From positions 62,001 to 126,000 of the forward strand of contig CAMECH010000002.1 of assembly GCA_945913015.1 (NCBI GenBank): a stretch of 64,000 nucleotides of DNA. Direction: 5' to 3'. Within the stretch, counting starts at the first letter, position 1, and every line of letters starts with the position of its first letter. The notes under the pieces were generated by a model. The model made no database searches, was not told the DNA's origin, and saw only the letters and a list, made by a program, of their open reading frames with translations. This DNA comes from an uncultured Bacteroides sp. GTDB taxonomy: Bacteria > Bacillota > Clostridia > Lachnospirales > Lachnospiraceae. Made by a program: the position numbers and the translations under genes. This document shows, piece after piece, positions 4,417 to 59,451 of the stretch.

Positions 4417-4495
4417 AACACTCTCCATTTCTGAGCGGTTTGTCTGCCACAGTGCCTGTTTGCTTTTGCTCAGAAGCAAACAGCCGTGTGAAAAA
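4417..4495 (-). repeat. 5'-leader repeat, partial copy (upstream of PocR hybrid kinase)
   Basis: Minus strand TTTTTCACACGGCTGTTTGCTT...AAGCAAACAG...AGAAATGGAGAGTGTTATG; shares TCACACGGCTGTTTG and AATGGAG-SD with 34582-34693 and 53702-53818. Confidence 0.65.
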
Positions 4496-4612
4496 TCTTC
4501 ATATCAATAAATTTTTTCGCACTATTACCCTTAAACCATCAATATCTATAGCATATTTTACAATATAGTTGTGAAATAGACAACAATTTATCAAAAAGAT
4601 TGTGGGCGGAAT

Positions 4613-7016: not shown

Positions 7017-7151
7017 ATTAACCCCCATTCCGCAGATGCTTTAACTTTTTTTCATATCATATTTCCTCGGAGCAATTTATACAATAGGGGATCATGTAAG
7101 ATGCATTTTATTGATGCAAGATGCAAAAATAATGTTGCCTGACTATAAAAA

Positions 7152-19102: not shown

Positions 19103-19210
19103 ATCAAATCTCCATTCCGCAGACACTAATCTGCATTCCGCAGTTTCATTATTTGTTGTACCGCTGCATAGAATATCTCTATGAACAACTTTACTGTAAA
19201 GGATTTTACC

Positions 19211-26752: not shown

Positions 26753-27979
26753 TTAGTAGAAACAATGTCCACCTATAATAACATAGTCGGTAACTCTTGA
26801 GAAATCAATGTACTCTGTTCCATTAAACGCTGTGTAGTTGCCGATATTATTCTTTCCTGACAAAGCCTCCAAAGCCGCTTCCATACATTCGTCAGTACGC
26901 GGACCATTTGCAAGTCTTTCAGCGAATCTTGAAGATATCTGTCCGCCTGAAAGGACACCGCCAAACTGGCTTCTTGCATATACTACATCATGAACTGTAT
27001 CAGGATAATGTGAACTTCTCACACGGTTTAATACAATGTTTGCCACGGCAAGTTTGCCTTCATATGGCTCCCATCCCGACTCCCAGTCTATAATGCAGGC
27101 CAGTATCCACAAATCATCCTCAGAAATCTCCATAGTCGGATTATAAGTAAAATCTGTTCCTGATATTGTTCTCTCAATAATAGCCTTACGGCGTGCCTCT
27201 TCTGCAGCCTTTCTTGCTGCTTCTTCCTCAGCAGCCTTTCTTGCCGCCTCTTCTGCCGCTTTCCTTGCAGCTTCTTCTGCCGCAATCTTTGCAGCTTCCT
27301 CCTCAATCGTAAGTCCTGTGTCAAATCCGTAATCAATTACTGTCTCACTGCCAAGTACATATGCAGATGAACCATCAGCCTGTAAAATCTTTACATAATC
27401 ACCGATTCTGCTTACAGGTACAGCCTCAGACTCCGCTGTAAGTGTTCCAACCACCTCTGCCTCTGCTGCATATGAAGAATAAATTACAGCCTCGGAAGAT
27501 GCAGGTACAATTGAAACCTCTGTTTCAAGCTTTGCAACGCTTTCTGCTTCAGAATCAAAACAAAGTGCATTAGTCTCAACAAATCCCGTCAGAGAACCTG
27601 ATGTTATCTTTGTCCAGCCCTTATCCTGCGATACAACATCTGCAATATTGTATTCAAAGAGCTTTCCTGCCATCTCTGCGCTGCTGTCAGGCTCTGTCAT
27701 TACCGCAAGATATTCTGTATTGGTAGCAACCGCCTTGCCCTTGAAAATGCTTTCTTCAGTAAGTATGTCCTGCTTTGCATATGCTACGATATCAACTGCC
27801 TTTTCCTCATATGATGCTGTACGCTCTTCGCTGTCAGCCGTTCCTGCTGCATATGCTTCCTGAACTGTCTGTGTAGCAACATAATTAGGTATAATCGGCA
27901 TCAGCATTATTACTGTCATAATACCTATCAGCATTGCTACCCTGCTTTTTGATTTCATAAATAACCTTTCCGCCTTCAT
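26753..27979 (-). CDS. Secreted SleB-type cell wall hydrolase with SH3-like region
   Basis: Signal peptide; AEEAARKAAEEAARKAAEEEAARKAAEEARRKA linker; DLWILACIIDWESGWEPYEGKLAVANIVLNRVRSSHYPDTVHDVVY... Confidence 0.88.
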   Translation of the reverse strand: MKAERLFMKSKSRVAMLIGIMTVIMLMPIIPNYVATQTVQEAYAAGTADSEERTASYEEKAVDIVAYAKQDILTEESIFKGKAVATNTEYLAVMTEPDSSAEMAGKLFEYNIADVVSQDKGWTKITSGSLTGFVETNALCFDSEAESVAKLETEVSIVPASSEAVIYSSYAAEAEVVGTLTAESEAVPVSRIGDYVKILQADGSSAYVLGSETVIDYGFDTGLTIEEEAAKIAAEEAARKAAEEAARKAAEEEAARKAAEEARRKAIIERTISGTDFTYNPTMEISEDDLWILACIIDWESGWEPYEGKLAVANIVLNRVRSSHYPDTVHDVVYARSQFGGVLSGGQISSRFAERLANGPRTDECMEAALEALSGKNNIGNYTAFNGTEYIDFSRVTDYVIIGGHCFY

Positions 27980-33606: not shown

Positions 33607-34581
33607 TTACTTGGAAATCATTGAGCTTACAAGGAATTCGTAATCATCAATATCCTTCTTCATTGCGAGTGCCTCATCAATGTCATAATCCACAAACTGA
33701 CCGTTCTTGTAGGCAACAACTCTGTTACTCTTGCCCTCACAGAGAAGGTCTACTGCTCTTGCTCCCATGACTGACGCATAAACTCTGTCCTTACATGTCG
33801 GATTACCGCCGCGCTGCATGTAGCCAAGAATTGTTGCACGAGTCTCAATTCCCGTTGCAGCCTCAATTCTTCTTGCCATGCCTGTTGAATGACCGATACC
33901 TTCTGCATTGATTATGAGATGATGCTTCTTACCTCTCTTGCGTCCTTCAATAATGTGATTAATAAGCTCCTGCTCGTCATTATTATAACGCTCCGGAAGA
34001 AGAATATCCTCAGCGCCATTGGCTATACCGCACCACAATGCAATGTAGCCTGCATTACGTCCCATAACTTCAATAATGCTGCATCTCTCATGGGAAGTTG
34101 ATGTATCACGCACCTTATCAATCGCTTCCATTGCCGTATTGACAGCAGTATCAAAACCGATTGTGTAATCCGTACATGCTATGTCCAAATCGATTGTTCC
34201 CGGAAGTCCGATTGTATTAACCCCTTGTGCCGCAAGCTTCTGCGCACCACGGAACGAACCGTCACCGCCTATTACAACAATACCGTCAATACCATGCTTA
34301 CGGCATGTCTCGGCTGCCTTCTCCTGACCCTGCTGTGTCATAAACTCAAGGCTTCGTGCCGTATAAAGCACTGTACCGCCGCGCTGTATTATATCAGATA
34401 CACTGTGCTTATCCATATCTATAATCTCATCGTTAATCAGGCCATTGTATCCTTTAAGTATACCCTTTACCTTAAGCCCTTTGGCAATTGCCGTTCTTAC
34501 TACGGCACGGATGGCAGGATTCATACCAGGTGCATCACCACCACTCGTCAGAACTCCTATTGTTTTAATCTCTTTTGCCAT
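33607..34581 (-). CDS. pfkA: ATP-dependent 6-phosphofructokinase
   Basis: [29 protein letters not shown]; start at 34581; the extra 33 codons in the ORF track lie in the leader repeat. Confidence 0.96.
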
Positions 34582-34693
34582 ACTAATCTCCCATTCCGCA
34601 GACGCTTTAGCGTCGAAGGAATCGCGAGCCGTCAGATTTAGCTCTGCGATAATGGCTTGTTTGTGGCGCCTGCGGCACAAACAGCCGTGTGAA
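34582..34693 (-). repeat. 5'-leader repeat, full copy (upstream of pfkA)
   Basis: ~53 nt identical to the mrp leader (53702-53818) plus covarying hairpins; ends in GCGGAATGGGAGATTAGTATG. Confidence 0.85.
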
Positions 34694-34791
34694 TAATTTG
34701 ACTAATTAATTTATATAATTCTAATCCAATCAAATTATATTTTCAATAATTTTTTGGAATTTCAACACTTTGCACTTAAACAACCGTTTTT

Positions 34792-43670: not shown

Positions 43671-43833
43671 ATTCTTCTTGTCTCCATTCCGGGAACACTT
43701 TTTCGCTCACAAAATGCTTATGGAAACGCTTTTTCCGCCGCACAGGATAATTTGTGGCATTCCCAACACAAATTCACTTATATTATTTACATTATAATCT
43801 ATCCAACTTTATCAATCAACCGCAAACACAATA

Positions 43834-52873: not shown

Positions 52874-53701
52874 TTATAACAGCTTTTCAAGCATTTCTTT
52901 TATTATATTAAAGCTTTCTCCCTCATATTTTTCTATTGTACCCGAATCAACACCGGCAACAAGGCTGGTATCAATAGGCAGCTTTGCGACATTGGCAATA
53001 CCAAAATTTGCTGCCAATTCTTCAATGTGACTTTTTCCAAATATCTCATGTCTCTTTTTGCAATCCGGGCACTCAAAATATGACATATTTTCCACTATTC
53101 CAAGTATCGGAACATTCATTGTTGCTGCCATGTTTACCGCTTTCTCAACAATCATTGACACAAGCTCCTGAGGCGTTGTTACAATAATTATTCCGTCAAC
53201 AGGCAGTGACTGGAATACCGTAAGCGCAACATCTCCTGTTCCCGGCGGCATATCAACCAGCATAACATCCACATCATTCCAAATAACATCCGTCCAGAAC
53301 TGCTGTACACAACTCGCAATAACAGGTCCTCTCCAGATTACGGGATCGGTATCATTGGCGAGCAAAAGGTTTGTTGACATAATTTGTATACCACTGTCTG
53401 AGCATACCGGCATCAGAACCTGTCCGTCACTTGAAGCTTTATTTTTTAATCCGAATGCTTTTGGAATTGAAGGTCCTGTTATATCAGCATCAAGAATAGC
53501 CGCATGTGCGCCTTTCCTCTGTGCAGCAAGCGCAAGCATTGAAGTCACCATTGATTTTCCGACTCCACCTTTGCCGCTTACAACTCCTATAACCTTTCTG
53601 ACTGTACTTCCTTCATGAAGCTGTTTGCGAAAGTCCTGCTCCTGCCTTGAATCACAGTTTTCTCCGCAGCTTCCGCAATTATGATTACATGATTCGCTCA
53701 T
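52874..53701 (-). CDS. Mrp/NBP35 family Fe-S cluster carrier ATPase
   Basis: MSESCNHNCGSCGENC...VIGVVSGKGGVGKSMVTSMLALA; true start at 53701. Confidence 0.93.
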   Translation of the reverse strand: MSESCNHNCGSCGENCDSRQEQDFRKQLHEGSTVRKVIGVVSGKGGVGKSMVTSMLALAAQRKGAHAAILDADITGPSIPKAFGLKNKASSDGQVLMPVCSDSGIQIMSTNLLLANDTDPVIWRGPVIASCVQQFWTDVIWNDVDVMLVDMPPGTGDVALTVFQSLPVDGIIIVTTPQELVSMIVEKAVNMAATMNVPILGIVENMSYFECPDCKKRHEIFGKSHIEELAANFGIANVAKLPIDTSLVAGVDSGTIEKYEGESFNIIKEMLEKLL

Positions 53702-53818
53702 ATTAACCTCCATTCCGCAGACGCTTATGCATCGGAGGAATCGCGAGCCAAATATCAGATTTGGCTCTGCGATAATGGCTTGTTTGTGGCGCCTGCGGCA
53801 CAAACAGCCGTGTGAAAA
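53702..53818 (-). repeat. 5'-leader repeat, full copy (upstream of mrp)
   Basis: See 34582-34693; ends in GCGGAATGGAGGTTAATATG. Confidence 0.85.
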
Positions 53819-53880
53819 ATCAGCGCATCTGCGTAATTTTTCACACTAACCTCCATTTTTCACGCAAAATCTTTATGAAG

Positions 53881-54080
53881 CATTATATCACGATTCGCAC
53901 TTCGTGCTTGACGATTTCTTCGAAATCTATCGTGATTGCCATTCGCCGCTCGCCATGAACAAGCTACGCTTGCTCCAGCTCGCTAACGCTCATTATATCA
54001 CGTCGACTGACGTCTCCGTGTAGTTTTGCCTTATGTCAATGTCCGCAAGCGCACATTGCCGCAAGGCTTATTATATCATA
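53881..54080. repeat. Cluster of nested palindromes bounded by ATTATATCA boxes
   Basis: ATCACGAT-[GCACTTCGTGC]-[GATTTCTTCGAAATC]-ATCGTGAT; CAAGCTACGCTTG; ACGTCGACTGACGT; GCCTT-CAATGT...ACATTG-AAGGC. Confidence 0.75.
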
Positions 54081-58674: not shown

Positions 58675-58788
58675 AGCGGGGTACAGATGCTGCTTTTCTT
58701 TATCCTGTACCCCGCTCACTTTCTCCTCCGCCGCCTGCCACACCTCCAGCGGGGTACAGAGACTGCAATTCGTGCATCTGTACCCCGC
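58675..58788. repeat. Two tandem GC-rich hairpins with identical stems
   Basis: AGCGGGGTACAG(58675-58686)/CTGTACCCCGCT(58705-58716) and AGCGGGGTACAG(58748-58759)/CTGTACCCCGC(58778-58788). Confidence 0.85.
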
Positions 58789-58792
58789 CCGC

Positions 58793-59344
58793 TCAATTCT
58801 CCTTCACCTCATTTAATACATCATTTACTATTCTTCTCAGTTTCAATGTACCAAAAAAATCCAACACCGGAATAAACTGCATTATCACTTGATTATTGGT
58901 AATTCCAATCCCTTTAATGTCACGCATATATTTTATATAACAATACCCATAAATTCCGCTTTGTATAATAAAAGAACAAGTTATTGCCACCGGTATCCAG
59001 ACAAATATAATAAATATTCCTCTGGAAGCTGCTACAAGAACAAACCACATTAAAAAGCTATATATGTAATTAACAATATAAAACGGTACAGTTTTTAACT
59101 TTAACAGCAACCATGCTTTCCTTAGTTCTTCTATATTGTTGTGTTTCAATAGTTTTCTTGCACTTACAGCGCAAATCCAGCCATACATCTGTATTGCTAA
59201 AACAATAATTACATATAACAAAATACATAACAATCCGCTTTTTGAATTGTATTTATTAGCAATAATAACAGCCATAAAAGGTGCCACCATACTCACCATT
59301 AAATGCAAATACATCAGTAATACCAACATTCTTGCTTTTTTCAT
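58793..59344 (-). CDS. Hypothetical membrane protein
   Basis: Multiple TM helices, 183 aa. Confidence 0.65.
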   Translation of the reverse strand: MKKARMLVLLMYLHLMVSMVAPFMAVIIANKYNSKSGLLCILLYVIIVLAIQMYGWICAVSARKLLKHNNIEELRKAWLLLKLKTVPFYIVNYIYSFLMWFVLVAASRGIFIIFVWIPVAITCSFIIQSGIYGYCYIKYMRDIKGIGITNNQVIMQFIPVLDFFGTLKLRRIVNDVLNEVKEN

Positions 59345-59451
59345 ATATTTATTACCACCATTTTTAGAATATTGTTTCGTCGTTATTTAAATGGTAAAAT
59401 ATGATAGAAAAAAAGTCAACCTGCGATAAATCGCTCAGAATGGAGGTTAAT

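Follow-up and report, generated by a model that had tools for sequence, protein, structure and literature searches.

Integration into tRNA genes and insertion of Tn7 at attTn7 direct mobile DNA to safe sites where the function of the target is left working; the element described here differs from both in being gene-free and in targeting the ribosome-binding sites of many unrelated genes. The BOX, RUP and SPRITE repeats of pneumococci are regarded as parasitic and affect co-transcribed genes (PMC3049150). In the Bacillus cereus group, bcr1–bcr18 are described as interspersed repeats, some MITE-like and others with a conserved RNA structure and transcription within 5′ UTRs (discussed in PMC3446304). 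REP sequences, as presented in the available part of their description, are palindromes of 20–40 bp with tags (PMC3733652).

The element belongs with these small interspersed repeats of bacteria (BOX, RUP, SPRITE, bcr). Like BOX, RUP and SPRITE it is small, non-coding, multi-copy and tightly folded, and has modular subtypes (PMC3049150). Unlike them, it lies between a Shine-Dalgarno (SD) sequence and the start codon and has a covarying pairing between a loop and the SD side. Furthermore, BOX and RUP fold by pairing terminal inverted repeats (PMC3049150), whereas the ends of the present element (GTGTGAAAAAT and ...TGCGGAAT, reverse complement ATTCCGCA) do not match. The bcr repeats, compared by description only, come from a different lineage, and the available part of the source states no SD-adjacent placement or SD duplication (PMC3446304). 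With REP and BIME sequences, as far as the available part of their source describes them, the element shares high copy number, intergenic location, folding and hairpin-defined ends; it differs in having several stems in a unit of about 135 bp and in a host genome without a Y1 transposase (PMC3733652). A search of the open-access literature found no description of the element family, which appears to be undescribed. Nor did the Rfam comparison proposed in the preliminary description of the locus match any family above the gathering score.

The window, that is, the whole stretch of 64,000 nucleotides analysed, contains eight copies or fragments of the element, every one before a start codon. The preliminary description had reported a structured leader before pfkA and a second copy before mrp. 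The sequence and coordinates of the pfkA leader are right, and the described stems are real, as is the change of GACGC/GCGTC to GATGC/GCGTC that preserves pairing through G-U. That account had missed a 5′ hairpin (H0), the complementarity between loop 1 and the SD side, a perfect 8-bp repeat around the mrp copy and the six further copies or fragments. A full copy of about 135 bp starts with H0 (GTGTGAAAAAT...ATTTTTCACAC), followed by H1, H2, a small H3 and a 3′ end in ...CGGAAT. H0 is intact in the mrp copy and decayed in the pfkA copy; the two leaders are 97% identical over 66 nt and 90% over a further 40 nt. The features are:

34593–34706, minus strand: pfkA copy, type A, covariance-model score 105.5 bits; decayed H0 at the 5′ end (about 34687–34706), CGGAAT at the 3′ end (34598–34593)
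34654–34686, minus strand: H1 stem-loop of the pfkA copy, GGCTGTTTGTG / CACAAACAAGCC, loop CCGCAGGCGC at 34675–34666, with covariation
34621–34650, minus strand: H2 stem-loop of the pfkA copy, outer pairs ATCGC/GCGAT, inner stem 4 nt shorter through loss
34601–34614, minus strand: small hairpin H3 of the pfkA copy, GACGC TAAA GCGTC, its 3′ strand also used by the loop-1 pairing
34596–34605, minus strand: 3′ strand GCGTCTGCGG of the pfkA copy, complementary to loop 1 (34675–34666)
34588–34592, minus strand: pfkA SD, GGGAG, immediately 3′ of the element; pfkA ATG at 34581–34579
33607–34581, minus strand: pfkA, phosphofructokinase, 324 aa (PF00365, E 7.6e-106)
53712–53846, minus strand: mrp copy, complete with H0 (53810–53846), 136.4 bits
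53704–53711, minus strand: gene-side octamer GGAGGTTA, the mrp SD plus spacer, read directly
53847–53854, minus strand: upstream octamer GGAGGTTA, a perfect direct repeat of the gene-side octamer, read directly
52874–53701, minus strand: mrp, ParA/NUBPL-type P-loop NTPase, 275 aa (PF10609, E 2.9e-87)
4427–4522, minus strand: type S copy, H2 lost, loop CTGAGC pairing with GCTCAG, before the gene of a PocR-type sensor kinase (ATG 4416)
43671–43786, minus strand: near-full-length degenerate copy, loop GGGAA / TTCCC, before ATG 43670
7027–7040, minus strand: 3′ fragment before ATG 7016
19110–19143, minus strand: 3′ fragment with internal deletion, GCGGAATGCAGATTA-GTGT-CTGCGGAATGGAG, before a start codon
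26566–26578, minus strand: 3′ fragment TTTCGGAATGGAG before ATG 26558
59425–59446, plus strand: 3′ fragment of type D (GATAAATCGCTCAGAATGGAGG) before a start codon

Other repeats occur in the window. A repetitive, hairpin-rich stretch (GCATTATATCACGATTCGCACTTCGTGC...GAACAAGCTACGCTTGC) lies directly upstream of the mrp copy at 53880–54000, a palindromic unit (AGCGGGGTACAG...CTGTACCCCGCT) is present at 58675–58809 in two imperfect tandem copies 73 bp apart, and 24–27 bp tandem repeats lie within a coding region at 27198–27299.

The likeness of the pfkA and mrp leaders was taken from the start as more than chance, and the host genome (2.38 Mb, 51 contigs, 99.8% complete) bears this out. Queried with the pfkA leader up to but excluding the start codon, BLAST gave 44 matches, about 35 of them near full length and almost all running directly into ATG or GTG, so the resemblance is not due to chance. 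A covariance-model search returned 86 hits, the H0 pattern 42 matches (none in the control) and the exact pattern CGGAATGGRG-N5-8-ATG 77 matches (none in the control). In total, we read at least 79 recognisable copies or fragments, assigned to types A, B, b, C and D and the reduced types S and E, which are divergent and share a common plan. Contigs C18, C20 and C37 end within element copies; some recent, identical copies are therefore probably missing from the assembly.

Copies lie nearly always on the strand of the gene and at a constant short distance from start codons of unrelated genes, as the pair in the window had suggested. The start codon of an open frame was scored within 25 nt for 62 of the 79 copies or fragments, a count that missed several more with a start just beyond the scanned stretch. 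Since the ATG region is part of the covariance model, its hits lean towards start codons; neither the BLAST nor the H0 search has this lean. A comparison set of 48 copies came from 21 other genera and the two sister species; in 41 of them the start codon falls at the identical model position, and the genes that follow, named from their N-termini, are unrelated (metK, queC, an rdgB-like gene, dihydrofolate reductase, UDP-glucose dehydrogenase). The few copies away from ribosome-binding sites are L025, L038, L041, L068 and three b-type copies. An approximately 270-bp MITE with inverted termini (TTGTACAATA...AAACAAATCCATCGCAG) holds an identical b-type copy in mid-element at three positions (L048, L056 and L066; C3:132.4k, C7:85.8k and C14:65.0k). 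We therefore rejected b-type copies as autonomous elements, since they are located inside the MITE and amplified with it as a passenger.

The covariance-model search also covered the family, and 39 of the 299 sampled Lachnospiraceae genomes, representing 38 genera, had hits in a patchy distribution. In many of the positive genomes all scored candidates were positive, and one further family of the order Lachnospirales also has hits. One variant had named matches in Lachnospiraceae MAGs, Bacterium C-53, a Eubacterium MAG and a MAG labelled Clostridiaceae. Phage cargo was rejected as an explanation: IMG/VR had no match to one type-A motif, plasmids had no element match, and the phage-side matches are four unverified scaffolds. 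These four (MT837007, MT838414, MT836788 and MT839002; L207–L210) are unannotated faecal 'phage' sequences with the element and may be bacterial DNA.

The stems covary strongly. In H1 and H2, 95.9% of positions are paired and 21 of the 24 pairs are changed on both sides (13.9 in shuffles); the paired fraction falls to 33–49% in slid controls. In addition, the H1 loop is complementary over 7–11 bp to the strand beside the SD and covaries with it across genera. Each full type has its own partners (A, CCGCAGRCGC/GCGTCTGCGG; B, GAGAACG/CGTTCTC; C, TCGGAGC/GCTCCGA; D, CTGAGCGA/TCGCTCAG), and host-genome copies are 95.7% paired in this helix, with five pairs changed on both sides. For 60 sequences from more than 20 genera, the mean duplex energy was −16.6 kcal/mol when matched and −9.9 kcal/mol when mismatched, and none of 300 permutations was as good.

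Sister species speak to mobility. In two of them, pfkA, mrp, rplI, rimO, argC, rnhA, rlmH and moxR are without the host-genome copy, and some of these sites carry remnants of another short element type. The rpiB gene has the element in the host genome and an empty site in the sister species (GACTGGAGGAAGATAAAAGATG). The absence of the pfkA, mrp and other copies indicates that the element moves (or is lost), and single cases of presence and absence could be loss rather than gain. Copy number, covariation and presence/absence between sister species together give good support for a mobile structured leader element with one orientation at start codons, in line with the original proposal of a mobile leader. 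In sister species a further, shorter element of type F (...GTGCTTGTGCACAAACTTTGGATG...GGCAGGAATGGAG) is found at these same start codons (L096, L184, L232 and L233).

The flanks of the element resemble each other. In the sister pair L107/L177, the site reads TTTAATGGAATGGAGGATAATATG when empty; when occupied, it shows GGAGGATA on either side of the element. The pair L098/L182 has one octamer on both sides, given a 2-nt indel, and in L096/L183 the native GGAGAATAGT is on the gene side. At most loci the upstream octamer is SD-like (consensus GGRGNNNA), and the gene side carries an octamer that resembles or equals it. The two flanking heptamers agree exactly at 23 of 67 loci (7.3 by permutation), an excess which suggests that the host SD-spacer is often duplicated or that likeness to an SD-spacer is required for insertion. 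Some left flanks are remnants of earlier copies; when remnant-like left flanks are removed, exact octamers are still in excess (6 versus 1.1), although the heptamer test is cleaner because the script for this second test also caught some chance regex matches. Several recent copies (L009, L010, L018 and L026) have unequal flanks, so plain target-site duplication cannot be the full explanation. There is good support for it at some loci, but as a general rule it is unproven.

These flanks also qualify the earlier statement that the element brings its own SD, which holds only in part. CGGAAT is the end of the element proper; the SD after it is often a duplicate of the host gene's SD-spacer octamer, as in L107/L177, L098/L182, mrp and the native gene-side octamer of L096/L183. 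At other loci, such as rpiB, the gene-side copy of the flank looks element-like. It is better to say that a working SD remains beside the gene and is often the gene's own.

We consider it probable that the element is a family of non-autonomous mobile elements defined by structure, whose insertion is guided to SD sequences and leaves a duplicated or re-created SD-spacer next to the start codon. The invaded gene would then keep a working ribosome-binding site and tolerate the insertion, a safe-haven strategy, and selection would remove insertions within genes. The stems and the pairing of loop 1 with the 3′ strand may serve as recognition features for the mobilising machinery and may also hold the SD exposed; exposure of the SD is 0.45 beside real element bodies and 0.29 beside shuffled ones.

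Several routes of movement and one regulatory role compete with this reading. An alternative of fairly low probability is a circular DNA form that recombines, site-specifically or through short homology, between a junction (CGGAAT-GGRGNNNA-GTGTG) and SD sequences. Such a form would account for flanks that are correlated yet sometimes non-identical, for the orientation and absent inverted termini, and for loci where one flank looks element-like and the other native-like (rpiB and rnhA).

A SINE-like retroelement, in which target-primed reverse transcription in trans would place copies of a structured RNA at SD sites, seems doubtful to us. It agrees with the constant 3′ end and 5′ truncation of many copies, the duplicated target octamers, the lack of inverted termini and the strong RNA covariation. 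However, 5′ truncation can also be decay because selection acts only on the SD end. Furthermore, the reverse transcriptase domain (PF00078) is absent from the host genome and present in only 10 of the 20 element-bearing genomes.

A role as a cis-regulatory leader RNA is a rather improbable reading. Here, competition between loop 1 and the H3 strand for the segment next to the SD would be shifted by temperature, a ligand or a protein, tuning the translation of a dispersed regulon. Two mutually exclusive pairings adjoin the SD and covary, and the distance to the start codon is fixed. H3 shares its 3′ strand with the loop-1 pairing and has the weaker support of the two. The full 9–10 bp loop pairing may clash sterically with an intact H1, so the pairing may be partial or may alternate with H1 or H3. 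Yet the downstream genes (pfkA, mrp, rimO, argC, rnhA, rplI, rlmH and others) have no common function and their sister-species orthologues are without the element, both of which count against a dedicated regulon. Start codons also retain many 3′ fragments that lack H1 or H2, no Rfam riboswitch matches, and many copies are near-identical and probably recent insertions. A leader-peptide attenuator was rejected as well: frames from the GTG of H0 vary in length from 3 codons to over 60, occur in all phases and are not conserved.

That the element is a minimal form related to IS200/IS605-type single-strand transposons and mobilised by a Y1 transposase is very improbable. Such an origin would fit ends marked by hairpins rather than inverted repeats, and oriented insertion beside a short motif repeated at the right end. 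However, Y1 transposase (PF01797) is absent from the host genome, and the flanking motif is not a single fixed short sequence but changes from locus to locus.

Given the absence of both domains from the host genome, we rejected a reverse transcriptase or Y1 transposase as the obligatory mobiliser of the element. A recombinase acting on a circle is a possible mobiliser, as is a lost or unrecognised enzyme. We propose, tentatively, a new kind of bacterial mobile element that takes the ribosome-binding site as its target, is recognised by its fold rather than by terminal repeats, and regenerates the SD, which would allow dozens of genes per genome to be invaded while their translation is preserved.

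In one gut bacterium, unrelated genes have their start codons marked by at least 79 recognisable copies or fragments, and related elements do likewise in dozens of genera. If insertion is SD-guided and SD-restoring, the element would be a new answer to how mobile DNA can multiply where genes are densely packed. Its copies would further serve as a natural leader series for studying translation, as markers of true Lachnospiraceae start codons and as a starting point for finding the mobilising enzyme.
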